From Spinacia oleracea (Eukaryota; Streptophyta; Magnoliopsida; Caryophyllales; Amaranthaceae), in NCBI RefSeq assembly GCF_020520425.1, contig NC_079491.1:2542001-2606000 (forward strand): a stretch of 64,000 nucleotides of DNA. The letters are read 5' to 3'. The notes under the pieces are model-generated. The model had not been told where the DNA came from and made no database searches. It saw nothing but the letters and a program-made list of their open reading frames with translations. Shown piece after piece: positions 18,642 through 45,639 of this stretch (its first letter is position 1; each line of letters opens with the position of its first letter). The position numbers and the translations under genes were made by a program.

Positions 18642-18708
18642 AGACGAACATTCATATGGACAGCTTGGTGGTGTACACCAGTTTAATATGTTAGTTGACA
18701 TATTGCGA

Positions 18709-21859: not shown

Positions 21860-22143
21860 TACATATTAGTAATCAAATATTACATTTTTTTGTTAATCAC
21901 GTAATTAGACGCTTTTTTTTTGTAGGGGAACATAATTAGAGGTTTATTAACGTTCTTCTAATCCTACTTTTCTTTCGTTTCAAGTCATTTAATTTTTTCT
22001 GGGTGTTAATATTTCTGACTCTTCTCATCAAACATATCTTTTTTTCTCTGAAAAACTGATTTACATTTATAAGGAGATTATTGTTTTGCAACAATTAATT
22101 CAGATTTAGGGAAATCTTAGAAGTAAGCTATCCGGTAACCCAC

Positions 22144-22678
22144 TGTAGGCATTAAAAATATGAAGAATGCCACATCATCATTTTTTGTCCCGAAAAAGTC
22201 AAATGTTGACTTCTATTATTAAATGTCAGATAAATTGTTTAATTTGGGTTATAAACCAAATAGGCCCATTTTTAATAAATGACGTTCATTTAATAGGAGT
22301 GGGTTATTTAAATGAGCTTAAGTAAAGAGGCCCATTTATCCACAAAAGGAAAACCCTAAACCTAAGAAGAGGATATAAAAAGTTCTCTCCAAGTCATTTG
22401 GCAGACAGACTGAACGTAGTATACAAAAACCTACTACTCTCCAGAAAAAACCCGAAGACGGCTTCCAAGCACACAAGTCTGACATCAAATCTCGGTGGAA
22501 GAAGAACAACAAGCACAAACGCCGTTCTACCTTCAAACCACAAATTCTTGCTGTTGTAGAGATCGAATCAGTGGATAAACATTAGAGATTGTACCCAAAT
22601 ACAAAATCAATAAAAATATATTTTGTTCACATTATTTTGATTCTGTTATTTTTGCAGACTCGTAAATTTGTGTTTACA
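22144..22678 (+). repeat. Left LTR of the truncated retrotransposon copy
   Basis: 535 bp, TGTAGG...TTTACA, preceded by CCCAC. It contains a telo-box-like AAACCCTAAA (22351-22360), TATAAAA (22374-22380) and AATAAA (22609-22614). It is identical by eye to 37486-38020. Confidence 0.92.
22374..22380 (+). promoter_or_regulatory. LTR TATA box
   Basis: TATAAAA, 14 bp after a telo-box-like AAACCCTAAA; the expected promoter of the genomic transcript. Equivalent positions exist in the other two LTRs. Confidence 0.65.
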
Positions 22679-22680
22679 AA

Positions 22681-22700
22681 TTGGCACGCTCGGTGGGACC
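22681..22700 (+). other. Probable primer-binding site
   Basis: TTGGCACGCTCGG... starts two bases after the LTR, the expected location and TGG-type start for a tRNA primer site. I could not name the tRNA. Confidence 0.5.
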
Positions 22701-22754
22701 ACTCTACCACTCATCTCCTTCTCTACAAAAAAAAAAATCAATCTACCAACGAAG

Positions 22755-25700
22755 ATGGCTGCTCAACAAACCGTTTCCATGTCCGATGCTGAGAAGGCCG
22801 CTATGGTGAAACAAAGGGCGGCAGAATTGGCTGAGATGATGAAAGGGCGTGACGAGGGTATACGCACCAGAGGAATGAAGAACGCTGATCTGAATGAGGC
22901 TGCTTCGAGTCTGCGTTCGGCTCCTATCACCACCAAAACAAGGAGAAAGAGCCATGTCCGTGCTTCCTCCGACGTGTCCCCGAATCCGTATTACCGCAAA
23001 TCCCGCAACATCCCTGTTTTCGGGTCCTTTCCTGCTGAAGGTGCACGATTCCTTATGCCCGGTGAAGAAGATATGCGTCCTCACCAAAAGCCTGACAGGC
23101 TGGTCATCCACACTAGTCCTTTGTTCGATCCTTTCTATGTAGAAAGCGATGCAAAGAGTAGTACCGGGTCTTCTCCAACGTCACCCCTCAAAGTATCAGA
23201 TTGTGAAGAATCGGTCCAGTCCCTACAGACCGACATTGCGGAGGTGATGGCGATCGAATCAAAGACCGTTGAGGAGCAGCTTGCCGAAATGAAGGGCATG
23301 ATCGTGAAGCTCATGAAGGATGGCGAGGAGAAAGACGAGGAAATCAAGAAGCAGAATGAGAGGATTTCCTCCTTAACCAAAAAGCTCAAGAAACAGGAAG
23401 AGAGCGCAGACGAAGAGAACGACGACTCTGAAGGGAGTACGACTTCAAAATCTACCACAAAGGGTGAAAAACCCGACGACACATTCACCATGAAAAAGAT
23501 CCAGGACATGATAACAAATGCGGTGAAGAATCATATCGTCGGAAGCTCCGGCCCTAGTCATCTTTATGAGAAGCCGTACACGAAGAGAATCGATCACTTA
23601 AGGATGCCCGTCGGTTATCAACCTCCGAAGTTCCAGCAGTTTGACGGAAAGGGGAACCCCAAGCAGCATGTAGCCCACTTCATCGAAACGTGCAACAACG
23701 CTGGCACATCGGGGGATTTACTCGTCAAACAGTTCGTCCGTTCTCTAAAGGACACGGCATTCGACTGGTACACGGACCTTCCTGCAGAAGCCATCGACAG
23801 TTGGGCAGAAATGGAGGAAGAATTCAAGGCCAGGTTCTACAGTACACGACGTGTCGTCAGCATGATTGAATTGACAAAGACGACACAGTGGGAGAATGAG
23901 CCTGTTGTAGATTACATCAACCGGTGGCGCACTCTAAGCCTGGAATGCAAGGACCGTCTGACGGAGACCTCTGCTATTGCAATGTGCATCCAAGGTATGA
24001 ACTGGGATTTGCTGTACATTTTGCAGGGCATAAAACCAAGATCCTTTCAAGATTTGGCTACCCGTGCTCATGACATGGAGATCAGTATCACCAATAATCG
24101 TGGAGGAAGTTCTTCAAGTTTCAAGAAGGAAAAGAAGGACTTCAAGAAGCCTGAGAAATACGTGAAAGATTCAACCAAGGAGTCATTTGCCGTTGCCACT
24201 AGCTCTGCCCCTGTAAAAATTTCGGCGAAGCCTAAAACTGAACAGAAGAAAGGGCCATTTACAAAAGATGCTCGGAGAGATAAGCCAACGCTTAAAGAAC
24301 TCCAAGCAAAGAAGTATCCATTTCCAGATTCAGACTTGGCCGGCATGTTGGACGATTTGTTGGAGAAGAAGGTCATAAGCTTGCCTGAGTCCAAGCGCCC
24401 TGATCAAATGGGAAGGACATCTGACCCAAACTTTTGCCCTTACCATCGAATAGTGAGCCATCCTATCGAAAAGTGCATCACTCTCAAGGAGAGAATCATG
24501 CAACTTGCAACAGAAGGGAGGATTGTGCTAGATCTGGATGAAGCGGCGGAGTCCCATCATGCTTCAGTCATCCAGTTTGGAAGTTTGGATCCCATTTTGA
24601 TAATAGATCCCGTCAAGAATTCTGCGTCCACCCCTCTACCTCGCAAGGAAGATGAGGAAGGATGGACATTAGTGACGAGAAGGAAGAAGAGAAAGCAAAC
24701 GAAGCTAGAAGAGCAACCTCCTCTTCGTCAAAAGCAACACCAGAAAAGAAACAAATCCAAAAGTTCGCATGTCACGAGAAACAAAGGTCTCGTGAAAAAG
24801 AAGAGCACCTCGCGCGACAGTTTTCCCACAAAGGAGGTACGAAAGCATGTCACATTAAATGATTTCCTTCCGCAGGAATACCTCGGCGAAATTTCTGTCA
24901 ACACAGTGACCTGTAGCGTGGCGGAAGAAGAAGAGAAAGAAGAGAAAAGTCTAGTCTCTGAAGGGCTAAACCATGAAAGAGACCCTGAAAGAGATGCAAA
25001 GATTCTGGCGTTGTTAGGTACAGTCCCTTCTCGAATGGGTTGGCGCCAAGCTTTATCCCTACCCGAAGAAATGAGGTTCGCCCTTGCACGTGCCATAGAA
25101 AATCCGACGCAATATACATCGAAGGAAAATATTGAGCAAGGGATCTACGAAAATCACCCTGAGCGTTGTGCTGCATGCAGTGCGGCCTTGGCATTCACAG
25201 ACGAAGACCTTATGTTGGGTTCAAAGCCTCACAACAGACCTCTCTTTGTATGTGGATACATCCGCAAGAAAAAGATCAACCGCATCTTGGTAGACGGAGG
25301 TTCCGCAGTGAACATAATGCCGAAGTCCACCATGACGAAGTTGGGAATCACCGAAAGTGAGTTGACCGAAAGTCGATTGATGATCCAAGGATTCAATCTA
25401 GGCGGGCAACGAGCCATCGGTATGATAAGAGTTGATCTGACTATCGGAGAAATGACTGCAACAACGATTTTTCATGTCATTGATTCGAATACTTCATATC
25501 GCCTATTGCTAGGCCGACCTTGGATGCACGAAAATGGAGTAGTAGCCTCAACCTTGCATCAATGCTTCAAATATTACAGAAACGGTGAAAGAAAGGTGAA
25601 TGCGGACGTGAAGCCATTCTCTGAAGTAGAGTCTCATTTTGCCGATGCGAAATTCTATGCCAGCCAAGGAGAGCCTGTTGAAGTAATGCCCACGGAAATT

Positions 25701-28700
25701 GCATCGACTGGAAAAGTCATGCCGAAGAAGTTGCAATCAAGGGTTACAGAAGAGAAGCCTTCAAGGAATGTTCTGGAGCCGTCACATGAAACAGTTGATG
25801 AGAAGAAAAGCAAGGAGATTCTTTCGCAAAGAGTTGAAGAAAATCCTAGAGAAGCAGTGCCAGTGCTACGTTACATCCCCATGTCGCGTCGCAAAGAAGG
25901 TCAGTCTCCGTTTATGAATTGTGGAGCAGAAACAACTTCAAAAAAGGTCAAGGACATGCCGCAAGAATTTGATAAAAGCATGACATTGCCGGTCCATAAG
26001 ATCAGTGACCCGAAGATATTGACTTCTCCTACTCCAAACTCCACGAAGTCGCCAGAAACACCTAGCTCAAGGAAAGATGGCTTCGATCCAGTTGCATACA
26101 AGTTAATGGAAAATTCTGGTTATGATTTCTCTAACCCAAAACCCATGGGAAAGCTCGTTGAAGATAAGTCATACGGCCTCAATAAAACTCAGCAAAAACT
26201 TCAGCAACAAGGTGAACGTGTTTGGGTGAAAAAGGTTGGTTTGGGATTCAAGGAGTCTAAGCCAATTATCATCTCAGGACGACGGAGGTCAATGCAAGCA
26301 TCACAGTACATTGGAGTTCAGGAAATGGAAGAAAGTGTGGATGAGAATTTTGAGCCAGTCCAGAAAGAATCGGTTTTTGATAGGATACATCCGTCTTCAG
26401 CTAAAGCACGGTCCTCCGTCTTTGATAGGCTCGACGGTCCGGTAAACTCTCCAACACCAAGTCGAGTCTTTGATAGATTGGGAGATCATTCCGGGAAAGC
26501 ACATAAGAGCCCGAATGCAAAAGATGTCTTCGCAAGATTGGGAAAAGTCACTGGCAAACCCACCAATTGTCTGTCACAGAAGCCTAAGAAGGAAGTCTTC
26601 AGTCGTCTTGGGAAGAAGGACGTTTCGCTCAAGCCGCAGTGGAGGCCGAAAAACACTGCATCAAAAACAAGAGACAAGTTCGAGCTGGAAAACGATGTCA
26701 GAAGCAACGTACCTTCTCGAATGAAACGCTTGGCGGTACTGGAAGTGAAGACAGGTGATTCTCTCCGTGTAAAAGGCCACACCATGGTTCTAACCTGCCA
26801 AAAGAGCCCCACAAGCCAGAAACGTGATGCCGTAGAAGATATGACGGTCACCTCCTATCATATCACCGCTTATGAGGATGTAGACTTGGAGGAGGAGATG
26901 GAAACAACAGAAGCACCAAAAAATCTTGATGATGGAGTTGAGACCACAATTGATGAACTAAAGGAGTTGAATCTCGGCACCCAAGATGATCCGCGTCCAA
27001 TCTATGTTAGTGCTCTGCTCACTCAGGAAGAAGAGAAGGGATACTTCGAAATACTCACCGAGTACAAAGATGTTTTCGCCTGGAGTTACAGGGAAATGCC
27101 GGGTCTTGACCCCAAAGTGGCGGTCCACCGTTTAGCAGTAAGGAAAGGAGTCTCAGCAAAGAAGCAACCTCAGAGACGCTTCCGACCTGAATTAATTCCA
27201 GAAATTGAAGCTGAAGTCAACAAACTCATCGACGCTGGCTTCATTCGTGAAGTAAAGTATCCTACTTGGATTGCAAACATTGTACCTGTGAGGAAGAAAA
27301 ATGGCAAGTTGCGTGTTTGTGTAGATTTCAGAAATCTGAATGAAGCGTGTCCTAAGGATGATTTTCCTTTGCCTGTCACCGAGATAATGATTGATGCAAC
27401 GACCGGACATGAAGCATTATCCTTCATGGATTGTACGGCGGGATATAATCAGATCCTCATGGCGCCCGAAGATCAAGAAGCAACGGCGTTCCGTACACCA
27501 AAGGGTATCTTTTGCTACAAGGTGATGCCGTTTGGTTTGAAAAATGCAGGCGCAACTTATCAAAGAGCAATGCAGAAAATCTTCGAGGACATGATGCATA
27601 AGACCGTTGAATGTTATGTCGATGATCTTGTCGTCAAATCAAAGAAGAGGAACGATCATTTGCTTCATCTCCGCGAGGTATTCAAGAAATTGCGTAGGTA
27701 TCAATTGAAGATGAATCCCTTGAAGTGTGCATTCGGCGTAACCTCTGGAAAGTTCCTAGGATTTGTTGTGAGACATAGAGGAATTGAAATTGACCAGTCA
27801 AAAATTACAGCAATCCAGAATATGCCCGAGCCGAAGAACCTCAAAGAATTGCGCGGATTACAAGGGAGACTTGCATATATCCGACGCTTCATTTCGAATC
27901 TTGCAGGACGATGTCATCCTTTCAGCCATCTTATGAAGAAGGGCGCTCCATTTGAATGGGACGATTCATGTCGCAAAGCTTTTGAAAGCATCAAGCAGTA
28001 CCTCTCAACCCCACCTGTCTTGGGGGCACCGGTTCAAGGGAAGCCACTTATCCTCTACATCTCTGCTCATGAAAGGTCGTTGGGGGCATTGTGTGCTCAA
28101 GAGAATGGTGACGGAAAGGAAGCTGCTCTTTACTACCTCAGTCGTACGTTGGTTGGCGCGGAATTGAATTATTCGCCTATTGAGAAAGTGTGTCTAGCTT
28201 TGATCTTTGCAATCCAAAAGTTGAAGCATTACATGCAGGCACATACGGTGAAGGTGATCTCCAAAGCTGACCCCATAAAGTACATCCTATCAAGACCAGT
28301 ACTATCCGGAAGACTTGCTAAATGGGCTATGCTCATAAGTCAACATGATGTTGTGTACGTACCTCAAAAGGCGATCAAGGGACAAGCTTTGGCCGATTTC
28401 CTAGCTGCACATCCGATTCCATCACATTGGGAGCTTCCTGATGATCTACCTGGAGAAGAAGTATTCTACATTGATGTCTTACCTCCATGGGAAATGTACT
28501 TCGACGGAGCAGCTCGCCAAGATGGTGCGGGAGCAGGGGTCATCCTTGTATCACCTGAGAAACATGTCTTCACGTATTCATTTACGCTCACCAACTTATG
28601 CTCGAACAATGTTGCTGAATATCAAGCTCTCGTTCTGGGGCTTCAAATGGCAAAAGAGATGAAAATACAGGACCTTGATGTATACGGTGACTCCAAGCTG

Positions 28701-30248
28701 GTGATCCATCAACTCCTCGATGATTATGATGTCAAGAAAGATGACTTGATTCCTTATTATAAGCATGCTTCACAATTGCTGGCAGAATTTGAGAGCGTCC
28801 GATTGCAACATGTTCCAAGGAGTGCCAACAAGACAGCGGATGCACTTGCAAATCTCGCAGCCACATTGGCACTGGGGGCAGAAGAAAACATGTCGGTCCC
28901 GGTCTGTAATCGGTGGGTGATAAACCCTCAAGATGAAGTTGAAATTGAAGCTGAAGAACTCTCAGGTGCAGTTACTGTCTATGAGATAGACATAGAAGAT
29001 TGGCGTCGACCACTCATTGATTTCTTGGTACACGAAAAGTTGCCAAGCGATTTGAAACACAAGATGGAAATTCGACGACGTGCTCCACGCTTCATTTACT
29101 ACAAAGAAACACTTTACAGGCGTTCGTTCCTTGGAACCTGGTTGAGATGTTTGGGAGATGAAGAAGCAGCAAAAACAATGCAAGAAGCTCATTCTGGAGT
29201 TTGCGGAGCTCACCAATCTGGTCCTAAGCTTCACGACCGTGTCAAGAGGATGGGGTACTACTGGCCAACCATGGTTCAAGATTGCATGGAACTTGCGAAA
29301 AAATGTGAAGCTTGTCAATTCCATGCGAACTTTATTCATCAACCTCCGGAACCGCTACATCCGACAGTGACATCTTGGCCGTTTGAAGCATGGGGTCTCG
29401 ATGTTGTTGGTCCAATCACACCGAAATCATCAGGTGGTCATGCATACATCCTTGCCGCTACGGATTACTTCTCAAAATGGGCGGAAGCAATACCTCTTCG
29501 TGAAGTCAAGAAAGAGAACGTGGTCGATTTCATTCGGAATCACATCATACATCGATATGGCGTGCCACGTTACATAATCACAGACAACGGAACACCATTT
29601 GTCAACAAGTTGATGACGAGCCTTTGTGAGAAATTCAAGTTTGCACAAAACAAGTCTTCAATGTATAATGCACCTGCAAACGGACTAGCTGAATCTTTCA
29701 ACAAAACACTTTGCAAGTTGCTTAGTAAGATTGTTGGGAAACACCAGCGAGATTGGCACGAAAGAATGGGCGAAGCTCTATGGGCGTATCGTACCACGTA
29801 CAGGACACCAACTCAAGCGACACCTTATGCACTTGTGTATGGTGTGGAGGCCATATTGCCATTGGAGATTCAAATTCCGTCACTTCGCATGGCAATCCAG
29901 GAAAATCTCACTGAAGAAGAAAATGCTAAGATTCGTCTGGCAGAGTTGGAAGCACTTGACGAAAAGAGGCTTGAGGCGCAACAAAAGTTGGAATGCTACC
30001 ATGCTCGTTTGACAAGGGCGTTCAACAAGAAGGTGCGAGTACGGTCTTTCAAAGTTGGAGACACGGTCCTTGCTATCAAGAGACCGATCATTGTTTCTCG
30101 CAAAACGGGAAATAAATTTGCATCGAAATGGGATGGTCCTTACGTTGTCCAGGAAGTCTACACAAATGGAGCTTACAAGATCGTTGATGCAGAAGGACTG
30201 CGCATAGGCCCTATCAACGGCAAATTTTTGAAGCGTTACTACCCTTGA
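22755..30248 (+). CDS. Gag-Pol polyprotein of the Tat-clade Ty3/gypsy element
   Basis: One ORF of 2497 residues from the ATG at 22755; upstream in-frame codons reach back into the LTR end and are not a plausible start. Visible in order: Gag core (about 305-445, FDWYTDLPAEAIDSW), a Cys/His knuckle-like CPYH...HPIEKC (about 560-575), protease with VDGGS (Asp about 847), a spacer with five VF(D/A/S)RLG-like repeats (about 1205-1283), reverse transcriptase with YVDD (1621-1624), the ordinary RNase H (about 1765-1850), a second RNase H (from YFDGAAR, Asp 1917), and integrase with an HHCC finger (about 2145-2185) and D2216, D2277, E2313 (35 residues between the last two). The double RNase H places it in the Tat clade. 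Confidence 0.95.
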   Translation: MAAQQTVSMSDAEKAAMVKQRAAELAEMMKGRDEGIRTRGMKNADLNEAASSLRSAPITTKTRRKSHVRASSDVSPNPYYRKSRNIPVFGSFPAEGARFLMPGEEDMRPHQKPDRLVIHTSPLFDPFYVESDAKSSTGSSPTSPLKVSDCEESVQSLQTDIAEVMAIESKTVEEQLAEMKGMIVKLMKDGEEKDEEIKKQNERISSLTKKLKKQEESADEENDDSEGSTTSKSTTKGEKPDDTFTMKKIQDMITNAVKNHIVGSSGPSHLYEKPYTKRIDHLRMPVGYQPPKFQQFDGKGNPKQHVAHFIETCNNAGTSGDLLVKQFVRSLKDTAFDWYTDLPAEAIDSWAEMEEEFKARFYSTRRVVSMIELTKTTQWENEPVVDYINRWRTLSLECKDRLTETSAIAMCIQGMNWDLLYILQGIKPRSFQDLATRAHDMEISITNNRGGSSSSFKKEKKDFKKPEKYVKDSTKESFAVATSSAPVKISAKPKTEQKKGPFTKDARRDKPTLKELQAKKYPFPDSDLAGMLDDLLEKKVISLPESKRPDQMGRTSDPNFCPYHRIVSHPIEKCITLKERIMQLATEGRIVLDLDEAAESHHASVIQFGSLDPILIIDPVKNSASTPLPRKEDEEGWTLVTRRKKRKQTKLEEQPPLRQKQHQKRNKSKSSHVTRNKGLVKKKSTSRDSFPTKEVRKHVTLNDFLPQEYLGEISVNTVTCSVAEEEEKEEKSLVSEGLNHERDPERDAKILALLGTVPSRMGWRQALSLPEEMRFALARAIENPTQYTSKENIEQGIYENHPERCAACSAALAFTDEDLMLGSKPHNRPLFVCGYIRKKKINRILVDGGSAVNIMPKSTMTKLGITESELTESRLMIQGFNLGGQRAIGMIRVDLTIGEMTATTIFHVIDSNTSYRLLLGRPWMHENGVVASTLHQCFKYYRNGERKVNADVKPFSEVESHFADAKFYASQGEPVEVMPTEIASTGKVMPKKLQSRVTEEKPSRNVLEPSHETVDEKKSKEILSQRVEENPREAVPVLRYIPMSRRKEGQSPFMNCGAETTSKKVKDMPQEFDKSMTLPVHKISDPKILTSPTPNSTKSPETPSSRKDGFDPVAYKLMENSGYDFSNPKPMGKLVEDKSYGLNKTQQKLQQQGERVWVKKVGLGFKESKPIIISGRRRSMQASQYIGVQEMEESVDENFEPVQKESVFDRIHPSSAKARSSVFDRLDGPVNSPTPSRVFDRLGDHSGKAHKSPNAKDVFARLGKVTGKPTNCLSQKPKKEVFSRLGKKDVSLKPQWRPKNTASKTRDKFELENDVRSNVPSRMKRLAVLEVKTGDSLRVKGHTMVLTCQKSPTSQKRDAVEDMTVTSYHITAYEDVDLEEEMETTEAPKNLDDGVETTIDELKELNLGTQDDPRPIYVSALLTQEEEKGYFEILTEYKDVFAWSYREMPGLDPKVAVHRLAVRKGVSAKKQPQRRFRPELIPEIEAEVNKLIDAGFIREVKYPTWIANIVPVRKKNGKLRVCVDFRNLNEACPKDDFPLPVTEIMIDATTGHEALSFMDCTAGYNQILMAPEDQEATAFRTPKGIFCYKVMPFGLKNAGATYQRAMQKIFEDMMHKTVECYVDDLVVKSKKRNDHLLHLREVFKKLRRYQLKMNPLKCAFGVTSGKFLGFVVRHRGIEIDQSKITAIQNMPEPKNLKELRGLQGRLAYIRRFISNLAGRCHPFSHLMKKGAPFEWDDSCRKAFESIKQYLSTPPVLGAPVQGKPLILYISAHERSLGALCAQENGDGKEAALYYLSRTLVGAELNYSPIEKVCLALIFAIQKLKHYMQAHTVKVISKADPIKYILSRPVLSGRLAKWAMLISQHDVVYVPQKAIKGQALADFLAAHPIPSHWELPDDLPGEEVFYIDVLPPWEMYFDGAARQDGAGAGVILVSPEKHVFTYSFTLTNLCSNNVAEYQALVLGLQMAKEMKIQDLDVYGDSKLVIHQLLDDYDVKKDDLIPYYKHASQLLAEFESVRLQHVPRSANKTADALANLAATLALGAEENMSVPVCNRWVINPQDEVEIEAEELSGAVTVYEIDIEDWRRPLIDFLVHEKLPSDLKHKMEIRRRAPRFIYYKETLYRRSFLGTWLRCLGDEEAAKTMQEAHSGVCGAHQSGPKLHDRVKRMGYYWPTMVQDCMELAKKCEACQFHANFIHQPPEPLHPTVTSWPFEAWGLDVVGPITPKSSGGHAYILAATDYFSKWAEAIPLREVKKENVVDFIRNHIIHRYGVPRYIITDNGTPFVNKLMTSLCEKFKFAQNKSSMYNAPANGLAESFNKTLCKLLSKIVGKHQRDWHERMGEALWAYRTTYRTPTQATPYALVYGVEAILPLEIQIPSLRMAIQENLTEEENAKIRLAELEALDEKRLEAQQKLECYHARLTRAFNKKVRVRSFKVGDTVLAIKRPIIVSRKTGNKFASKWDGPYVVQEVYTNGAYKIVDAEGLRIGPINGKFLKRYYP

Positions 30249-30297
30249 AGTTGTGCAACATTGTAACCTCCTAAGCACGAGGCTAAACTGCAACTGA

Positions 30298-30300
<3 letters not shown>

Positions 30301-30341
<41 letters not shown>

Positions 30342-30368
30342 GGAAATGACGTCAGCAAACGACGTCAG

Positions 30369-30420
<52 letters not shown>
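30301..30420 (+). other. Paired long A-tracts around TGACGTCA motifs
   Basis: About 39 A, then a short spacer containing TGACGTCA and CGACGTCA, then about 52 A. It lies between the ends of the convergent Gag-Pol and antisense ORFs. A third A-run of 23 lies near 30738-30760. The right copy has about 41 and 52 A at 45642-45764. Confidence 0.85.
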
Positions 30421-30423
<3 letters not shown>

Positions 30424-30805
30424 AGAAATTATTTTTGCTTTTAAGGAACTACGTTGGCTTGATCTTATGGAGTGAATTTATTCATTTCATAAGTACGTAG
30501 GCAGCTTGAAGGAATCACTAACTTTAAGTCCAGCCACACCAAAAATCTCTCCCATTTTTGTACTGCTCCTGGCCCGCAAGAGTATAAACTGTGAACGGCT
30601 AAATAAATAAATGAAAATTTCATGTTGGTTTCCTATGAGTTGAATGAATATGGAATCAATGACAAAAATCTTTGACAGGAAGAATGACGAGTCTTATTCA
30701 TTTCATTTTTGGAATTCTTAAAACAAATTGGTCTCTAAAAAAAAAAAAAAAAAAAAAAAGAATTAAAAGAAAACAAGTGCAACGATGGTAACAAGAAAGG
30801 CGGAA

Positions 30806-33127
30806 CTACGGTTCAAATTTGAAGGCTTGCAAAGCATCACGAGCAACACCAAATTGTTTCTCAGCTTCCGCTAGCTTTGCCTCCACCTCTTTCGCAGCAA
30901 CAATATTCTCCTTCATGATGAGGAGTGAGTTTTCTTGCTCTTTCTTCTGTATGACGTACCCTTGGAACTTCTCTTCTGATTCTGAAATAAGAGGCAAAAG
31001 TCTATCCGCTCGTTCTGCTAAATCATTGAGCTTCCTTTTATGTTCGGCTTGTTCTTGCTGAATCTGATCTATCTCCTTATGAAGAGCTTGCATTCGCTCC
31101 TCTTCTGCTTTCCCTGCAATTGTAGTTGTCTGCACGCTCGTCTCTATCTCCAAAGATCGTTGCTCCAAGTCATTGAGAGTGGGATCTCCCTGTTTCCCTA
31201 GCCGAACGTGGTGGAGTTGAGAACCGCACCCAATATACCCCTTGATAAAAGATTCGATTGCAGAGATGTCGATCTTCTTATCACGAACATAGGAGAAAAC
31301 CTGTTCAAACTCCTGCGCTAGTTCATGAACCTTGGCTAAAGGAGTCTTCATCAACTTGTCCTTTATTTCATTAATCATCAAGCTTGCAGCATATCGGTCC
31401 GCCCTGTTGGTCGCCTTAGTGATCATGTCTTGAGCATTAAAAGAAGGAGACTCGGTCGAAGCAGTAGAAACACTTGTGGTTGGCGCAGTATCAATGACAA
31501 CATCATCAATGAACTGTTGTTCAGGAAGGGAGACAAATGTATTCTCGCAAGCAGTAAGCTCTACTGCTATGTTCGCATCGCTTTGAAGATTCTGAAAAGT
31601 GAAAAATAAAGGGGATTAAAATAGTAATTAAAAAGAAAACGAGAATGTCAAAGTAAAGAAATGAACCTCTATCTCTTCAGGCGATAGCTCAGGGCCATAA
31701 TCTTCAGCGAAAATATCATCCAGAATTGTAGGTTCACCTGCGTGTTCGTCATCGGAAGGTTCATTTTCGTCATTGGAAGGTTCATTACTTACAACTCTGC
31801 TTGCTAGTCTTCTACTCTCGTCCCTGCATTTCGAAGATGTTTCCTTGGGCGGACAGGATATCGTGGAACTTTTAGGCAATCTGACTCTAACTTTGCGAGG
31901 TGCAGCCGAAGTCTTGGCAGCTTTGTCTTTTGGTGAAGTGTTAAGATCATCGCCCTTTCTCTCCTTTCTCTTCTTAGACCTGACATTTGTTAGACTAGGA
32001 GTTCTTGAAGCATAAGCCGCATTTAAAGAAACGACCGAATTCCACCATGTTGTGAAGCTTGGAGTGACTCGAGATTGGGCATTAAACGTGCGGCAAGGGA
32101 CCAAAAAAGTAGCCCTAGTATGCAGACGAATGCTGGACTGAAAAAGATAGTACATATGCTCTCGGGTGATGTTTTGTGTCTGGACTACTAATTCGCCTGG
32201 CACATCTTGGTGAAATCCGAATTGCCGACCGAATCGATGAGGACTGTATGGCTCAACCACGTAGTTGTTGTCGAACCTCAAGGTCAGAAAACAGGACCGC
32301 ATGCTAATGAAGAAGTTTGCGAATTGCTTTGGTTGATGGTTGTCATCTTCACGCTTCTCATCTGAATTACCACAAATTGAGTTAGCAAGCCAATTGAAAT
32401 CCTTACCCGAAGAAACTAGCGATTTAGCATCTGGAGACTTTATGACAGAGTCAAGGCCTTGAATTCCAACCAGGGGAGCACCAACAAAATCGTAGGTGAC
32501 GACGTGATGACTTATTGTTGCTACTGCTACTTCCCCATCCTCTCCAACTAATTCCGGCCACACGTTCTTTCCTACGCCGAAACCCTTAACAGGTCCTGTA
32601 CAGTGTACACGTGAAAATAAAAGTAGAAATATTATTCAGCGTTACAAAAATATATTACGTATGCATAATGTTATATTACATCCGTTTTAAAATTATCTTT
32701 ACAGTTACTCTGTACTATTTGCACAAATATTAAGAAAAAATAGGAAAAATGTATAAAAAGTTGGGTGAATAAAATTAAATATGGATACATAAAGAGAAAT
32801 ATGTACTCCGTAATAAATTGGGTGAATGAAAAAAAAATTGAATAAAGTAAGAGAAGTTGACTGAAAGAGCTGTAAATGTTGTGAGGTAAGAAGAATAAAA
32901 TAGTTGTAATTTTTTATGTCAAAAATAAATAAAACACAATTTGCAATGTAAATAACTGTATGAAATGGATTAAAACGGAAAATATAAAACTTATTTTGAA
33001 ACGGAGGTGGTACCGTGGTACTTACCAAATTGATTGACACGGGTATGAATAACGAATTCAAATTGTTAAAGCATATTTTACCTGAACATGAAATCGGGGG
33101 GGATTTGCATTCGCCTTCTTGTTCCAT
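30806..33127 (-). CDS. Chimeric gene: inhibitor head fused in frame to the C-terminal half of a retrotransposon-borne PMD protein
   Basis: Minus-strand order: promoter TATAAAG (33178-33184); exon 1 at 33082-33127 (MEQEGECKSPPISCS, identical to inhibitor E); exon 2 starts at 32595 and encodes the inhibitor as far as ...EVAVATI, then crosses the duplication junction at 32513/32514 and continues as SHHVVTYDFVG..., the PMD protein. A likely GT-AG intron (31592-31666) follows, then a coiled-coil exon to the stop at 30806. The frame is kept across the junction and across both introns, giving about 586 residues. The inhibitor part keeps the WPELVG segment and first helix but not the reactive loop, so inhibition is not expected. 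The PMD part lacks its N-terminal half. It keeps a basic SKKRKERKG patch and the coiled coil. Transcription is untested; function unknown. Confidence 0.8.
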
Positions 33128-33177
33128 TTTAAGAAAAAATACCTATAATATTTGTCTCTAAAATCTTCATTTCCTAG

Positions 33178-33184
33178 CTTTATA
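33178..33184 (-). promoter_or_regulatory. TATA box of the chimeric gene
   Basis: TATAAAG on the minus strand, about 50 bp before the ATG at 33127. It is an exact copy of the inhibitor E promoter region (17837-17843). Confidence 0.55.
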
Positions 33185-33311
33185 AGTAGACATGTTAATC
33201 AACCTATGATTTTTAAAAAATAAATAAATTTGTGGCTTTTCGTTAGTTTTATGAGGCCAAATTCGTAGAAGTTTAATTAGTTGGGTTCTTTCAATTATTA
33301 GATAGACGAAT

Positions 33312-33982
33312 CAGTGGCGGATCTAGAAAATAAAAAATGAGGGTCCAAAAAATTTTAAGTGGGGTAAATAGGATTTTTAATTTGTGGGTTTATTAACTAT
33401 AGAAAGTTAGAAACTCAAAGCTTGGTTCAAATTACAACTACAATTTAGATCGATTACCTTTTAAAAGAAAAAAAGAAACGAGTGTATACAACGAGTTTTA
33501 TGCTTGTAAAGAATTTTGTTTTGTTACAATTGTTCTTGAACACTAATGAAAAATAGTTCAAATCTTCTTCTAACGAACTAATTGGGTATTACGGAGTATA
33601 AAATTAGGACTCTAGAAGAATTCAAAAAATAAAAATACAGTACTACAAACCATGAAAAGATCAATGATGGGTAAAAGACAAAGATATAAAGACATAAAAG
33701 AAAAAGGGTAAGAAACCATTAAAGATGAAGACAACTTCAAGGGCAAGTAAAAAGTAAAATAATAGAAACTTTTTAAAAAATACCCTGTGTAGATTGGAAC
33801 ACAAGATCTCCCATGCAAATTAAATGTTTTGGGCGGACTCCAATAACCACTGGGCTACTTCAGTTTTTCGTATTGTTAGGCGTACATTAAGAAATAAGTA
33901 TATATGTGCAGTTTATCAGTTTTTATCGAAAAATAACGGGGGTCCCTTTGATCTCCACAAGGACTATGTAGGTCCGTCACTG
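33312..33982. mobile_element. hAT-type element, duplicated copy
   Basis: Copy of 17971-18641 carried by the tandem duplication, not a separate insertion. One base differs near 33773. Confidence 0.82.
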
Positions 33983-34049
33983 AGACGAACATTCATATGG
34001 ACAGCTTGGTGGTGTACACCAGTTTAATATGTTAGTTGACATATTGCGA

Positions 34050-34661
34050 ATAAATAGGTTACTCTATCATTTGCTCAAACTCTCATCTATTAATAACTAG
34101 ATTAGATCCCGTGCACGCACGGATTTTTATAAATTTTTTTCACAAAATATTTAACTGAATATCTCCCAAACTAATGCATAGTCCTAACATTTTTAACATA
34201 CTCGTTTAAATTTATTCACCTAATATGCATATTTAAAATGCTAATATAGTAATTTGACCAAATTTTTGAGTGATATATATTCCATTACTAATACAATGAT
34301 TTGACTAAAATGTTACCAATTTAGAATAATAATTATTACGTCGTATCAATTATTGCTATAATTTATAAACTAAATTTTGTTTCCATACCTAAATAATTTA
34401 TAAAAAAAGGGTGAGAATAAAAATAAAATAAAACAGATACACTTTTTGGGAAAGTGGTTTTTGGTGGGAAAAAATCGCACCAGGAATTGACACGTGTCAT
34501 TCCTGGTGTCTCTTTTAGTATATAGTAATAATAGATATCATCCTTATTGCTCTTATTGTTCTTATCGCATTTTTATTGTTCTTGTGTTATCTTGATTGTT
34601 CGGATATATACTTAGCACCATCTCTTGACGAATTCGAGCCTAGGCAAAATTTGTCCAAAAC
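34050..34661 (+). repeat. Old LTR fragment, duplicated copy
   Basis: Copy of 18709-19320, again split by the Helitron at 34097. Confidence 0.6.
34097..34535 (-). mobile_element. Non-autonomous Helitron, duplicated copy
   Basis: Copy of 18756-19194 with the same A/T flanks and terminal hairpin. Confidence 0.8.
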
Positions 34662-34843
34662 TGGGTACATAGAAGTTTAAAACGCTTACGTACAATCGAG
34701 TTCAACATATACAGAGCAAAAACATAAATGTTATTACTCTTTTTATTTTATTTCAACATAACATAATCGCACTAGCTAGTCATTACACATATTTATTCAT
34801 TACTCCGTACTTCAATTTTATGTGTACGCATTACTTTGCTTGC

Positions 34844-35595
34844 TTAACCGGCCATTGGAGGACGAATGACAATTCCATCAGAATCAACAATGACAAAGAC
34901 ACGGTAGCAGTTGTAGTTGAGTGGGATCCAAGATTTATCCCAAACAATGGGATCAACACGAGGGTTTTCTTCCTTAATGATTTTTGCTGCTTCTTCTCCC
35001 TTCATCCCTTCAAGCTCTGGCCAGCTAAGTTTCCCTGCAAAATTCATTAATTATTTGGAGGAGAGTTTAAATAATCGTTGCATATAACAAAATGCATACG
35101 GAGTATTTGCATTTAACAATTTAAAATCACTTTTTTACAGTTTAAAAACACGTACATTTTTCAGACTATAATGACCACCTAAGAGGAGAGCAACCAACAA
35201 CAATTTACATATCCCCAAATCTTTTGTGCTAAAAATTGAGAACCCTAATTTATTCAAGTATAGGTATAAATTCAATTTTATCCCTTTTGATAATTTCATG
35301 TAGCGTAGTACTTGCTTTTAAATAGGAAAAATGTGTTTTTAAACCATAAAAACAAGCTTTTAAAGTTTAAACTACACAAATAATGTGTTTTTAAGGGGTT
35401 AAAAATACAGAACGGTGTCGTTTTGACCCATTTGCATCTAGGTCTATATACATACATCCGGTTGTAGATTCTAATTTGCGTTATATTGCCAGAACAACAA
35501 TATAATGGGAAAAAAGAAGAAGTTGAATTTACAAAAGTTAAGCACTTAATTAAGCGTAGTAAACACTAACCAGATGGGCATAAATCTGATTCCAT
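34844..35595 (-). CDS. Potato inhibitor I family inhibitor, copy C' (71 aa, P1 Leu)
   Basis: Exon 1 is 35571-35595 and exon 2 is 34844-35034. The protein is identical to copy C (19503-20254), with the same TATA box (35696-35702) and introns. It was created by the 15.3-kb duplication, so the dose of this inhibitor is doubled. Confidence 0.9.
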
Positions 35596-36339
35596 CTCTT
35601 GATTTCTCTTTGAATTGTTTAGTGTAACTCAAAGTTTCAAGATTATTTGTAACGTTTGGTGGTTGGTTATGTTGATGCAATAAAAATTGTGTTCATTTTA
35701 TAGACGAGTGACTCACTAATACGTACGATGAAATAGCTACCAATCACTGCTTTCAATGACAAAATTGTTTTGGCATCTAAAATTAATATTGCAACCCAAA
35801 AACGTGGGATAAAAATTGTATGGCCTGAATGAGATTGGGATAAAACTCAGTTGGAGTTTTTTGATTTTTTTTTTGTTTATTTATATTATTTTTATTTTTT
35901 AAACTAGGGACCAGTATTCTATTCAATTCTCCAACCTTACCGGCCATGAAATTAATATTTTATCTCTTCGAGTAACACCAGCATAAAAAGTCAAGTAATT
36001 AACACCAGTCAACGATATTTTGACTTTTACGTTTGTCAATATACATTTTTTAACATATATTAATATCTTGAATTGCATGTAGTTCAAATTATGAAGTTTG
36101 ATATTGTTAAAATATACATCGAGATGAATCTAATAAGTTCTTGGTAGAGCGGTAGAGTAGTCATTATTATATAGTGAGTTTTTGTTGTTGGGAAATATCC
36201 AAGATTGATAGAATAGAGATAAAATTAGTGGTTTAAATATTTAGATTACCTTTTATGTTTGAGTTGGAGTGGGCCTACTAATTGGGCTAAATTGTGCTAT
36301 GGGCTTGGGGGTGCTTGTGGTTAGTTTATTAATATAGTT

Positions 36340-36555
36340 ACTTCTTTTGCCCCTTAATACTCGGTCCGCTTTGACTTTTTGCACTATTCATATAATTCAC
36401 TTTGACCCTATTTTATTTCTAGTATATGAAAACAAATGTTCTTATATAATATATTGTTGGATTCATCTTAATATATATTTTCAAAATATTAATAATTTTA
36501 TAAGTTTTAATAATATGTAGTTAAAAATAGGTCGAGTATTAAGGGACGAAGGGAA
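36340..36555. mobile_element. Stowaway-like MITE, duplicated copy
   Basis: Copy of 20999-21214 within the right duplication unit. Confidence 0.6.
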
Positions 36556-37200
36556 TCTAATATACATATTATAAAGGAGGCATATTTGCTGAACTATTAG
36601 AGCGCCCCACCTAGGATTACTAATGGTTTCGACCAATGAAAAATAAGATTTCTAATTTATTTTTGAATTAAAAAAATCGAGTGCCACATAGATAATTAAT
36701 TAGGTGCCACGTAGATATTTAAATTAATTAATTAATTACAAATATATACAATTCCATCCAAAATCAAACGCTCTAATAATTAAAAAATAAATCTAAAATA
36801 AAATTCATCCAAAATCAAACACTAATTTAAAATAAAATTCAATCCAAAATCAAACATTAATCCAATATTAGAGCGCCACATAGGAAATCTAATGGTTTCA
36901 GCCAATGAAAAATAAGACTTCAAAATTATTTTGAATTAAAAAGTCGAATTCCACGTAGATAAATAATTAGGTGCCATGTAAATATTTTTATTAAATAATT
37001 ATTAATATTTCTTATATACAATTTCATCCAAAATCAAACACTATAATAAATAAAAAATAAATCTAAAATGAAATTCAATCCAAAATTTTTAAAAAATCAA
37101 TTTAATCTAATATATAAAATATAGCAGTTGATATATGTAGGATTTTTATTTTAACGTAACAATTTAATAGAAACCGTGCATCGCACGGGCTAAAGTCTAG
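36556..37200 (+). mobile_element. Non-autonomous Helitron, duplicated copy
   Basis: Copy of 21215-21859, ending in the same hairpin and CTAG before T. One G/A difference from the left copy near 36689. Confidence 0.8.
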
Positions 37201-37485
37201 TACATATTAGTAATCAAATATTACATTTTTTTGTTAATCACGTAATTAGACGCTTTTTTTTTTGTAGGGGAACATAATTAGAGGTTTATTAACGTTCTTC
37301 TAATCCTACTTTTCTTTCGTTTCAAGTCATTTAATTTTTTCTGGGTGTTAATATTTCTGACTCTTCTCATCAAACATATCTTTTTTTCTCTGAAAAACTG
37401 ATTTACATTTATAAGGAGATTATTGTTTTGCAACAATTAATTCAGATTTAGGGAAATCTTAGAAGTAAGCTATCCGGTAACCCAC

Positions 37486-38020
37486 TGTAGGCATTAAAAA
37501 TATGAAGAATGCCACATCATCATTTTTTGTCCCGAAAAAGTCAAATGTTGACTTCTATTATTAAATGTCAGATAAATTGTTTAATTTGGGTTATAAACCA
37601 AATAGGCCCATTTTTAATAAATGACGTTCATTTAATAGGAGTGGGTTATTTAAATGAGCTTAAGTAAAGAGGCCCATTTATCCACAAAAGGAAAACCCTA
37701 AACCTAAGAAGAGGATATAAAAAGTTCTCTCCAAGTCATTTGGCAGACAGACTGAACGTAGTATACAAAAACCTACTACTCTCCAGAAAAAACCCGAAGA
37801 CGGCTTCCAAGCACACAAGTCTGACATCAAATCTCGGTGGAAGAAGAACAACAAGCACAAACGCCGTTCTACCTTCAAACCACAAATTCTTGCTGTTGTA
37901 GAGATCGAATCAGTGGATAAACATTAGAGATTGTACCCAAATACAAAATCAATAAAAATATATTTTGTTCACATTATTTTGATTCTGTTATTTTTGCAGA
38001 CTCGTAAATTTGTGTTTACA
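37486..38020 (+). repeat. Left LTR of the whole element
   Basis: 535 bp; same as 22144-22678, with telo-box-like site, TATAAAA and AATAAA at equivalent positions. Confidence 0.93.
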
Positions 38021-38096
38021 AATTGGCACGCTCGGTGGGACCACTCTACCACTCATCTCCTTCTCTACAAAAAAAAAAATCAATCTACCAACGAAG

Positions 38097-41000
38097 ATGG
38101 CTGCTCAACAAACCGTTTCCATGTCCGATGCTGAGAAGGCCGCTATGGTGAAACAAAGGGCGGCAGAATTGGCTGAGATGATGAAAGGGCGTGACGAGGG
38201 TATACGCACCAGAGGAATGAAGAACGCTGATCTGAATGAGGCTGCTTCGAGTCTGCGTTCGGCTCCTATCACCACCAAAACAAGGAGAAAGAGCCATGTC
38301 CGTGCTTCCTCCGACGTGTCCCCGAATCCGTATTACCGCAAATCCCGCAACATCCCTGTTTTCGGGTCCTTTCCTGCTGAAGGTGCACGATTCCTTATGC
38401 CCGGTGAAGAAGATATGCGTCCTCACCAAAAGCCTGACAGGCTGGTCATCCACACTAGTCCTTTGTTCGATCCTTTCTATGTAGAAAGCGATGCAAAGAG
38501 TAGTACCGGGTCTTCTCCAACGTCACCCCTCAAAGTATCAGATTGTGAAGAATCGGTCCAGTCCCTACAGACCGACATTGCGGAGGTGATGGCGATCGAA
38601 TCAAAGACCGTTGAGGAGCAGCTTGCCGAAATGAAGGGCATGATCGTGAAGCTCATGAAGGATGGCGAGGAGAAAGACGAGGAAATCAAGAAGCAGAATG
38701 AGAGGATTTCCTCCTTAACCAAAAAGCTCAAGAAACAGGAAGAGAGCGCAGACGAAGAGAACGACGACTCTGAAGGGAGTACGACTTCAAAATCTACCAC
38801 AAAGGGTGAAAAACCCGACGACACATTCACCATGAAAAAGATCCAGGACATGATAACAAATGCGGTGAAGAATCATATCGTCGGAAGCTCCGGCCCTAGT
38901 CATCTTTATGAGAAGCCGTACACGAAGAGAATCGATCACTTAAGGATGCCCGTCGGTTATCAACCTCCGAAGTTCCAGCAGTTTGACGGAAAGGGGAACC
39001 CCAAGCAGCATGTAGCCCACTTCATCGAAACGTGCAACAACGCTGGCACATCGGGGGATTTACTCGTCAAACAGTTCGTCCGTTCTCTAAAGGACACGGC
39101 ATTCGACTGGTACACGGACCTTCCTGCAGAAGCCATCGACAGTTGGGCAGAAATGGAGGAAGAATTCAAGGCCAGGTTCTACAGTACACGACGTGTCGTC
39201 AGCATGATTGAATTGACAAAGACGACACAGTGGGAGAATGAGCCTGTTGTAGATTACATCAACCGGTGGCGCACTCTAAGCCTGGAATGCAAGGACCGTC
39301 TGACGGAGACCTCTGCTATTGCAATGTGCATCCAAGGTATGAACTGGGATTTGCTGTACATTTTGCAGGGCATAAAACCAAGATCCTTTCAAGATTTGGC
39401 TACCCGTGCTCATGACATGGAGATCAGTATCACCAATAATCGTGGAGGAAGTTCTTCAAGTTTCAAGAAGGAAAAGAAGGACTTCAAGAAGCCTGAGAAA
39501 TACGTGAAAGATTCAACCAAGGAGTCATTTGCCGTTGCCACTAGCTCTGCCCCTGTAAAAATTTCGGCGAAGCCTAAAACTGAACAGAAGAAAGGGCCAT
39601 TTACAAAAGATGCTCGGAGAGATAAGCCAACGCTTAAAGAACTCCAAGCAAAGAAGTATCCATTTCCAGATTCAGACTTGGCCGGCATGTTGGACGATTT
39701 GTTGGAGAAGAAGGTCATAAGCTTGCCTGAGTCCAAGCGCCCTGATCAAATGGGAAGGACATCTGACCCAAACTTTTGCCCTTACCATCGAATAGTGAGC
39801 CATCCTATCGAAAAGTGCATCACTCTCAAGGAGAGAATCATGCAACTTGCAACAGAAGGGAGGATTGTGCTAGATCTGGATGAAGCGGCGGAGTCCCATC
39901 ATGCTTCAGTCATCCAGTTTGGAAGTTTGGATCCCATTTTGATAATAGATCCCGTCAAGAATTCTGCGTCCACCCCTCTACCTCGCAAGGAAGATGAGGA
40001 AGGATGGACATTAGTGACGAGAAGGAAGAAGAGAAAGCAAACGAAGCTAGAAGAGCAACCTCCTCTTCGTCAAAAGCAACACCAGAAAAGAAACAAATCC
40101 AAAAGTTCGCATGTCACGAGAAACAAAGGTCTCGTGAAAAAGAAGAGCACCTCGCGCGACAGTTTTCCCACAAAGGAGGTACGAAAGCATGTCACATTAA
40201 ATGATTTCCTTCCGCAGGAATACCTCGGCGAAATTTCTGTCAACACAGTGACCTGTAGCGTGGCGGAAGAAGAAGAGAAAGAAGAGAAAAGTCTAGTCTC
40301 TGAAGGGCTAAACCATGAAAGAGACCCTGAAAGAGATGCAAAGATTCTGGCGTTGTTAGGTACAGTCCCTTCTCGAATGGGTTGGCGCCAAGCTTTATCC
40401 CTACCCGAAGAAATGAGGTTCGCCCTTGCACGTGCCATAGAAAATCCGACGCAATATACATCGAAGGAAAATATTGAGCAAGGGATCTACGAAAATCACC
40501 CTGAGCGTTGTGCTGCATGCAGTGCGGCCTTGGCATTCACAGACGAAGACCTTATGTTGGGTTCAAAGCCTCACAACAGACCTCTCTTTGTATGTGGATA
40601 CATCCGCAAGAAAAAGATCAACCGCATCTTGGTAGACGGAGGTTCCGCAGTGAACATAATGCCGAAGTCCACCATGACGAAGTTGGGAATCACCGAAAGT
40701 GAGTTGACCGAAAGTCGATTGATGATCCAAGGATTCAATCTAGGCGGGCAACGAGCCATCGGTATGATAAGAGTTGATCTGACTATCGGAGAAATGACTG
40801 CAACAACGATTTTTCATGTCATTGATTCGAATACTTCATATCGCCTATTGCTAGGCCGACCTTGGATGCACGAAAATGGAGTAGTAGCCTCAACCTTGCA
40901 TCAATGCTTCAAATATTACAGAAACGGTGAAAGAAAGGTGAATGCGGACGTGAAGCCATTCTCTGAAGTAGAGTCTCATTTTGCCGATGCGAAATTCTAT

Positions 41001-44000
41001 GCCAGCCAAGGAGAGCCTGTTGAAGTAATGCCCACGGAAATTGCATCGACTGGAAAAGTCATGCCGAAGAAGTTGCAATCAAGGGTTACAGAAGAGAAGC
41101 CTTCAAGGAATGTTCTGGAGCCGTCACATGAAACAGTTGATGAGAAGAAAAGCAAGGAGATTCTTTCGCAAAGAGTTGAAGAAAATCCTAGAGAAGCAGT
41201 GCCAGTGCTACGTTACATCCCCATGTCGCGTCGCAAAGAAGGTCAGTCTCCGTTTATGAATTGTGGAGCAGAAACAACTTCAAAAAAGGTCAAGGACATG
41301 CCGCAAGAATTTGATAAAAGCATGACATTGCCGGTCCATAAGATCAGTGACCCGAAGATATTGACTTCTCCTACTCCAAACTCCACGAAGTCGCCAGAAA
41401 CACCTAGCTCAAGGAAAGATGGCTTCGATCCAGTTGCATACAAGTTAATGGAAAATTCTGGTTATGATTTCTCTAACCCAAAACCCATGGGAAAGCTCGT
41501 TGAAGATAAGTCATACGGCCTCAATAAAACTCAGCAAAAACTTCAGCAACAAGGTGAACGTGTTTGGGTGAAAAAGGTTGGTTTGGGATTCAAGGAGTCT
41601 AAGCCAATTATCATCTCAGGACGACGGAGGTCAATGCAAGCATCACAGTACATTGGAGTTCAGGAAATGGAAGAAAGTGTGGATGAGAATTTTGAGCCAG
41701 TCCAGAAAGAATCGGTTTTTGATAGGATACATCCGTCTTCAGCTAAAGCACGGTCCTCCGTCTTTGATAGGCTCGACGGTCCGGTAAACTCTCCAACACC
41801 AAGTCGAGTCTTTGATAGATTGGGAGATCATTCCGGGAAAGCACATAAGAGCCCGAATGCAAAAGATGTCTTCGCAAGATTGGGAAAAGTCACTGGCAAA
41901 CCCACCAATTGTCTGTCACAGAAGCCTAAGAAGGAAGTCTTCAGTCGTCTTGGGAAGAAGGACGTTTCGCTCAAGCCGCAGTGGAGGCCGAAAAACACTG
42001 CATCAAAAACAAGAGACAAGTTCGAGCTGGAAAACGATGTCAGAAGCAACGTACCTTCTCGAATGAAACGCTTGGCGGTACTGGAAGTGAAGACAGGTGA
42101 TTCTCTCCGTGTAAAAGGCCACACCATGGTTCTAACCTGCCAAAAGAGCCCCACAAGCCAGAAACGTGATGCCGTAGAAGATATGACGGTCACCTCCTAT
42201 CATATCACCGCTTATGAGGATGTAGACTTGGAGGAGGAGATGGAAACAACAGAAGCACCAAAAAATCTTGATGATGGAGTTGAGACCACAATTGATGAAC
42301 TAAAGGAGTTGAATCTCGGCACCCAAGATGATCCGCGTCCAATCTATGTTAGTGCTCTGCTCACTCAGGAAGAAGAGAAGGGATACTTCGAAATACTCAC
42401 CGAGTACAAAGATGTTTTCGCCTGGAGTTACAGGGAAATGCCGGGTCTTGACCCCAAAGTGGCGGTCCACCGTTTAGCAGTAAGGAAAGGAGTCTCAGCA
42501 AAGAAGCAACCTCAGAGACGCTTCCGACCTGAATTAATTCCAGAAATTGAAGCTGAAGTCAACAAACTCATCGACGCTGGCTTCATTCGTGAAGTAAAGT
42601 ATCCTACTTGGATTGCAAACATTGTACCTGTGAGGAAGAAAAATGGCAAGTTGCGTGTTTGTGTAGATTTCAGAAATCTGAATGAAGCGTGTCCTAAGGA
42701 TGATTTTCCTTTGCCTGTCACCGAGATAATGATTGATGCAACGACCGGACATGAAGCATTATCCTTCATGGATTGTACGGCGGGATATAATCAGATCCTC
42801 ATGGCGCCCGAAGATCAAGAAGCAACGGCGTTCCGTACACCAAAGGGTATCTTTTGCTACAAGGTGATGCCGTTTGGTTTGAAAAATGCAGGCGCAACTT
42901 ATCAAAGAGCAATGCAGAAAATCTTCGAGGACATGATGCATAAGACCGTTGAATGTTATGTCGATGATCTTGTCGTCAAATCAAAGAAGAGGAACGATCA
43001 TTTGCTTCATCTCCGCGAGGTATTCAAGAAATTGCGTAGGTATCAATTGAAGATGAATCCCTTGAAGTGTGCATTCGGCGTAACCTCTGGAAAGTTCCTA
43101 GGATTTGTTGTGAGACATAGAGGAATTGAAATTGACCAGTCAAAAATTACAGCAATCCAGAATATGCCCGAGCCGAAGAACCTCAAAGAATTGCGCGGAT
43201 TACAAGGGAGACTTGCATATATCCGACGCTTCATTTCGAATCTTGCAGGACGATGTCATCCTTTCAGCCATCTTATGAAGAAGGGCGCTCCATTTGAATG
43301 GGACGATTCATGTCGCAAAGCTTTTGAAAGCATCAAGCAGTACCTCTCAACCCCACCTGTCTTGGGGGCACCGGTTCAAGGGAAGCCACTTATCCTCTAC
43401 ATCTCTGCTCATGAAAGGTCGTTGGGGGCATTGTGTGCTCAAGAGAATGGTGACGGAAAGGAAGCTGCTCTTTACTACCTCAGTCGTACGTTGGTTGGCG
43501 CGGAATTGAATTATTCGCCTATTGAGAAAGTGTGTCTAGCTTTGATCTTTGCAATCCAAAAGTTGAAGCATTACATGCAGGCACATACGGTGAAGGTGAT
43601 CTCCAAAGCTGACCCCATAAAGTACATCCTATCAAGACCAGTACTATCCGGAAGACTTGCTAAATGGGCTATGCTCATAAGTCAACATGATGTTGTGTAC
43701 GTACCTCAAAAGGCGATCAAGGGACAAGCTTTGGCCGATTTCCTAGCTGCACATCCGATTCCATCACATTGGGAGCTTCCTGATGATCTACCTGGAGAAG
43801 AAGTATTCTACATTGATGTCTTACCTCCATGGGAAATGTACTTCGACGGAGCAGCTCGCCAAGATGGTGCGGGAGCAGGGGTCATCCTTGTATCACCTGA
43901 GAAACATGTCTTCACGTATTCATTTACGCTCACCAACTTATGCTCGAACAATGTTGCTGAATATCAAGCTCTCGTTCTGGGGCTTCAAATGGCAAAAGAG

Positions 44001-45590: not shown

Positions 45591-45639
45591 AGTTGTGCAA
45601 CATTGTAACCTCCTAAGCACGAGGCTAAACTGCAACTGA

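Follow-up and report, generated by a model that had tools for sequence, protein, structure and literature searches.

Chimeric genes formed at the breakpoints of tandem duplications have been described in Drosophila yakuba, where excerpts of the study report chimeric structures together with regulatory sequence moved to a new place (Rogers et al., 2017; PMC5460883). In plant gypsy retrotransposons, additional open reading frames (ORFs) running antisense between pol and the 3' LTR are covered in passages on the Grande (gene23), RIRE2 and Retand elements (PMC7264820; PMC11963269), while the plant mobile domain (PMD) is given as present in 57% of Ogre elements in an extract of a further source (PMC6317226). 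A protein in which a PMD is joined to another domain is MAIL3, a PMD-PP7 phosphatase (PMC7156037, in the portion that treats it). Here we describe a spinach locus in which a tandem duplication has joined the head of a potato-inhibitor-I gene to a PMD gene that runs antisense within a gypsy element. It lies in a stretch of 64,000 nucleotides, hereafter the window (C5:2542001-2606000), of a genome of 894,210,420 bases in 242 contigs.

As in the excerpted D. yakuba cases, the spinach locus displays both a chimeric structure and relocated regulatory sequence; however, expression changes were measured there by RNA-seq, whereas the spinach fusion is known from sequence and has a retrotransposon accessory gene as one of its partners (PMC5460883). 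The likeness to Grande, RIRE2 and Retand extends to the position of the PMD gene, antisense between pol and the 3' LTR, and to the presence of more than one RNase H match in the element, but according to the same passages Retand elements mostly carry TRP28 at this place where the spinach element carries a PMD (PMC7264820; PMC11963269). The fusion resembles MAIL3, as portrayed in the extract, in coupling a PMD to another domain, yet MAIL3 has a phosphatase domain as the partner, while the spinach fusion keeps 97 of 347 PMD profile positions and a third of the inhibitor domain (PMC7156037). Tandem-duplication chimeras, antisense accessory ORFs and PMDs in gypsy elements have thus all been described, and the event is of a known kind. 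Among 15 of 267 papers listed in a literature search, none is on this particular fusion by its title or the opening of its abstract, which is no proof of its absence from print.

A tandem duplication joins an inhibitor gene to a PMD gene

Self-alignment of the window paired 17171-32513 with 32512-47857 at 99.95% identity (5 mismatches, 2 gaps), bearing out the 15-kb duplication that an earlier note on this DNA had claimed. The unit measures 15.34 kb (Table 1), and its copies are separated by five substitutions (18433, 18793, 21347, 31752 and 32343) and three indel bases, one in a T run at 21912 and two in an A run at 30299. The duplication itself certainly exceeds chance.

Table 1. Features of the duplicated locus, in positions of the window
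Feature	Position	Strand	Details
Tandem duplication, copy 1	17171..32511		15,341 bp; self-alignment
Tandem duplication, copy 2	32512..47855		15,344 bp; end ambiguous by 2-bp TT; self-alignment
Fusion junction	32511..32514	-	two T at 32512-32513 (AA on coding strand) common to both parents
Parent 1, intact potato-inhibitor-I gene	17037..17786	-	exons 17741-17786 and 17037-17254; 88 aa
Parent 2, full PMD gene	46150..49020	-	exons 47011-49020 and 46150-46935; 931 aa; antisense to gag-pol
TATA box, copied with inhibitor 5' flank	33179..33184	-	conserved in paralogue at 57 kb
Predicted fusion exon 1 (inhibitor exon 1)	33082..33127	-	46 nt; ATG at 33127; structure as in P0036
Predicted fusion exon 2	31667..32595	-	929 nt; inhibitor codons 32513-32595, PMD codons 31667-32512
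Predicted fusion exon 3 (from 3' exon of PMD gene; encodes helical tail)	30806..31591	-	786 nt; stop at 30806
Complete second inhibitor gene, copied whole	34847..35595	-	71 aa; twin at 19506-20254
Complete Ty3/gypsy element	37486..51494	+	LTRs 37486-38020 and 50960-51494; gag-pol frame 37983-45590
Copy-1 element, cut at junction	22144..32511	+	retains 5' LTR (22144-22678) and gag-pol frame; lacks 3' LTR and 5' part of PMD gene

Across the break, the sequence is ...CTTT|TTATTG in the left parent, ...GATGAC|TTCGAA in the right parent and ...GATGAC|TTATTG at the junction; hence, the microhomology amounts to 2 bp, and its T pair can be assigned to either parent. The break at 32513/32514 proposed in the earlier note is one of the placements allowed within this ambiguous TT, but the boundary between the ATA and AGT codons lies at 32512/32513. 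When a genome search with 501 bases around the junction was evaluated for 40 of its 1016 candidates, a single one was seen to span the junction, and the junction 27-mer was present in one of 28 loci examined, namely the window itself (L001). The duplication is demonstrable and its break falls inside two genes of the same strand, as in chimeric genes formed by tandem duplication.

The right break is inside the element, away from its LTRs. We considered and rejected a break at the end of the element or recombination between repeats, as the break on the left falls in inhibitor exon 2 and that on the right in a PMD exon, with 2 bp in common. Random pairs of breaks drawn from inhibitor exon 2 and the span of the PMD gene share at least 2 bp in 16% of cases, so the observed microhomology is unremarkable. 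Similarly, random pairs from inhibitor exon 2 and the first PMD exon are joined in frame in 33% of cases; thus the in-frame state is not beyond chance, and selection for the frame, which was also weighed as a candidate, is not supported when a third of random joins keep it.

The inhibitor parent and its array

In a domain scan the intact parent is a full member of the potato-inhibitor-I family (PF00280; 60.7 bits against a cut-off of 24.5). It is without an entry of its own among the public proteins searched, where the one match is its 94% paralogue, the proteinase inhibitor P0036; the 88-aa parent may be unannotated or differently modelled. P0036 itself is encoded in the window at 56754-57488 with a letter-for-letter match. 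Genome-wide, the family returned 33 matches, 29 of them on C5 between 2.507 and 2.811 Mb, and these include a tandem array of 27 minus-strand matches from 2,552,130 to 2,664,204, which starts about 10 kb into the window.

Inhibitor-type exon 2 occurs twelve times between 10130 and 63716, each time on the minus strand, and two of these copies are damaged: that of the fusion and that at 52657-52905. The latter belongs to a paralogous pseudogene in which a deletion, by eye about 14 nt long, breaks the frame; it lies at most about 25 nt from the position equivalent to the duplication breakpoint. The stretch around the inhibitor breakpoint is possibly fragile, or this is possibly a coincidence.

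On the 5' side of the junction the copies are identical up to 33773, over about 1.26 kb, and the TATA box and the inhibitor 5' flank were copied, as the earlier note had claimed. Three potato-inhibitor-I genes of chromosome 5, SOV5g002160-2180, are expressed according to the relevant passage of PMC10815260, with a bolting-stage change in line 12S4 and none that was significant in line 12S3; SOV5g002170 was named in one paper. A further gene, SOV5g002600, is placed at 3.098 Mb of chromosome 5 in an extract of PMC11155116. Since the C5 matches of the family all fall between 2.507 and 2.811 Mb, SOV5g002160-2180 should belong to the array, on the assumption that C5 is chromosome 5.

The PMD parent and its Ty3/gypsy element

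The protein of the second parent scores 109 bits against the PMD profile (PF10536) and is letter-for-letter identical to the public spinach protein P0001. Its gene is located between pol and the 3' LTR of a complete gypsy element, in agreement with the earlier proposal that the PMD is retrotransposon cargo, and the element is thus a Ty3/gypsy element with an antisense accessory ORF at this position. The LTRs measure 535 bp with 2 mismatches, and are flanked by the target-site duplication (TSD) CCCAC at 37481-37485 and 51495-51499. Domain matches to gag, reverse transcriptase (RT), RNase H and integrase follow in order in one plus-strand frame, and none among them is to a protease at E 0.001. 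RNase H-type matches occur in two separate stretches after the RT, though a placement in the Tat clade (Ogre/Retand) needs an RT phylogeny too. Rfam and tRNA scans of the 64-kb window found nothing.

PMD sequence is abundant in the genome, as indicated by at least 126 matches to PF10536 from 117 of 4487 candidates scored. We compared the copy-2 gene with 20 regions (L009-L028) from 22 other PMD-side places, leaving out C3:1933543, which lies inside L014, and C4:178527289. Where identity over the retained part is below 0.9, as in eight of the regions, that part has an omega of 0.15-0.36; the remaining twelve (identity of at least 0.97) are too similar to judge, with values of 0.33-0.85 and an undefined one for L010. 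Six of the 20 (L019, L020, L021, L023, L024 and L025) have stop codons at aligned columns, a count that covers stops and not frameshifts. Because the diverged copies have omega values far under 1, we ruled out that the PMD frame is a chance frame; the lineage of the accessory PMD gene has thus evolved under constraint on the protein. The low omega is a property of that lineage and not of the fusion copy, which is too young.

The interval 22144-38020 forms a composite of LTR, gag-pol, truncated PMD gene, fusion head, complete minus-strand inhibitor gene and the next 5' LTR. It is probably not mobile, because the LTR at 37486 is not preceded by the short G-rich stretch found ahead of the 3' LTR at 50960.

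The predicted fusion gene and its product

The fusion is a predicted minus-strand gene of three exons that add up to 1761 nt, i.e. 586 codons and a stop. Hence, the earlier arithmetic of a whole number of codons is correct, and the join between inhibitor and PMD is in frame as had been claimed, with no internal stop. Both predicted introns, 32596-33081 and 31592-31666, have GT...AG borders, and the second matches an intron implied by P0001. Residues 1-43 of the 586-aa product would come from the inhibitor (exon 1 and 28 exon-2 residues, the first from the codon split by the intron) and residues 44-586 from the PMD protein, equivalent to its residues 389-931 of 931. This PMD part of 543 residues differs from copy 2 at fusion residues 100 and 297.

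In the domain scan the fusion matches PF00280 over profile positions 1-21 of 64 with 18.5 bits, below the cut-off of 24.5, and PF10536 over positions 251-347 of 347 with 35.5 bits, 0.6 bits above the cut-off of 34.9. It therefore lacks a complete inhibitor domain, and on the PMD side it barely reaches the score cut-off while about 72% of the profile, and with it most of the domain, is gone. With 21 of 64 and 97 of 347 positions remaining, neither domain is complete in the fusion. The label of a plant-mobile-domain protein given to it earlier is consequently right as far as the score goes but overstated for what remains of the domain.

We also modelled the structure of the parent protein P0001 using 10 relatives. 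The model has a mean pLDDT of 39.6, which makes its PMD part unusable; invariant columns in the retained part are biased, the relatives having been gathered with the fusion as query. Parent residues 723-926 are modelled as long helices (block-mean pLDDT of 67-92 over 731-930), and this stretch, the only confidently modelled one, is kept in full in the fusion. The long helical tail is consistent with the coiled coil of the earlier description, and it is plausible that the C-terminus of the fusion would be a coiled coil.

A search of public proteins with the fusion gave 35 matches, none of which lists PF00280; this is a weak test, given that the fusion itself is below the PF00280 cut-off. The best match is the parent PMD protein P0001, which represents a 15-member cluster at 90%, and a fused member could be hidden under it because of this clustering.

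Order and age of the events

Substitutions both shared by the copies and private to one of them allow the order of events to be reconstructed. The base at 31992 is common to both copies and differs in all six other places aligned there, and the 25-mer that contains it is found in none of the 20 other PMD-gene regions. Copy 2 alone has changed at 47096 and 47687, and its 25-mers are likewise found in 0 of the 20 regions; the copy-1 25-mers at these two sites are present in 6 and 10 of them, with the rest carrying neither. This combination shows that both copies derive from one insertion and diverged afterwards. Between the two 5' LTRs there is no difference, while both depart from the 3' LTR at 2 of 535 sites, and the empty insertion site is visible in a paralogous unit of the array near 55.9 kb. 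Together with the TSD CCCAC, these observations place the insertion before the duplication.

The 2 differences in 535 LTR sites translate into an age of about 270,000 years for the insertion (Poisson range 32,000-965,000), and the 5 in 15,340 sites into about 23,000 years for the duplication (7,600-54,000). Both ages rest on a dating rate of 7e-9 per site per year and are rough. The earlier note was right about the youth of the event. The 1.7-kb PMD part of the fusion copy has no private changes, and the event is too young for selection on the fusion to be visible.

Alternative explanations

We regard it as probable that an illegitimate tandem duplication produced, by chance, an in-frame chimeric candidate gene, in all likelihood a recent by-product that is neutral or close to neutral. 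The gypsy element would already have been inserted in the same inhibitor array when the duplication arose with its ends in inhibitor exon 2 and in the PMD gene antisense to gag-pol, presumably through end joining or template switching at the 2-bp microhomology. The join, falling in frame by chance, would have put the last 543 PMD residues, with the intron and 3' end of the PMD gene, behind an inhibitor-derived head made up of promoter region, exon 1, intron and 28 residues of exon 2. Were it transcribed, the chimera would encode neither a complete inhibitor nor a complete PMD, and would have a long helical, probably coiled-coil, C-terminus; it may be weakly expressed or silenced together with the element. 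The truncation of both domains and a frame at the 1-in-3 chance rate are consistent with this reading.

That a single 15-kb unit was assembled twice by way of a chimeric read or circular DNA appears unlikely. Many reads are shorter than the unit, whose copies are nearly identical, and the section of PMC8668906 on what appears to be this assembly gives PacBio CLR reads from DNA sheared to about 20 kb, with Illumina correction. Against this, the copies differ by five substitutions, and the line is described there as inbred and homozygous (PMC8668906); copy 2 has private changes unseen in the 20 other regions while another change is common to both copies; one insertion followed by duplication and then separate mutation speaks against such an error. 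Both private changes are also present in P0001, though this protein may stem from another version of the same assembly and is silent on copy 1. A duplication that matters by dosage is a possible, if less favoured, explanation: its effect would lie in the extra complete 71-aa inhibitor gene, copied from 19506-20254 to 34847-35595 with its product unchanged and together with about 12 kb of upstream sequence, in a family that is itself a tandem array of 27 minus-strand matches, and the fusion would be incidental. As C5 carries about 29 copies, a single addition may make little difference; nevertheless, this complete gene is a likelier source of any effect than the fusion, and such an effect can coexist with a neutral chimera.

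It is improbable that the fusion is a functional new gene, in which the inhibitor promoter would drive a helical PMD C-terminal fragment, acting for instance as a dominant negative towards the PMD proteins of the element or the host. The open frame, canonical splice sites and copied TATA box are compatible with such a gene, as are the predicted retention of the helical tail (parent 723-926) and the expression of SOV5g002160-2180, stage-dependent in one of two lines in the passage cited above (PMC10815260), which should lie in the array. However, about 72% of the PMD profile has been lost, silencing is likely given near-identical copies elsewhere, and no selection is required for a join to fall in frame. 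Expression of the fusion together with selection on it would make the view of a neutral by-product wrong, and the untouched frame is compatible with that too. We give very little credence to an antisense effect, in which sense transcripts of the copy-1 element would extend over the fusion and the complete 71-aa inhibitor gene to the LTR at 37486 and yield RNA antisense to inhibitor genes. Such read-through is possible because the copy-1 element has its 5' LTR (22144-22678, plus strand) and has lost its 3' LTR, with the fusion and the inhibitor gene on the minus strand before the next LTR at 37486-38020; moreover, antisense transcription in elements of this type, with dsRNA silencing as a possible outcome, is discussed in part of PMC7264820. 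On the other hand, transcription could end before 32.5 kb.

Implications

The chance-made by-product that we favour is a well-resolved and very young join between the head of a host gene and a transposon accessory gene, in which both parents and the scar of the insertion are still legible, as is the succession of events. It is conceivable, though we consider it highly doubtful, that a fragment of a transposon accessory gene under a stage- or stress-dependent inhibitor promoter represents domestication at its first step, tens of thousands of years old. Were this true, a dominant-negative PMD/coiled-coil protein would interfere either with the element it came from or with PMD silencing proteins of the host. 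If transcripts exist, the locus would offer a usable case for how often such chimeras are expressed and kept.
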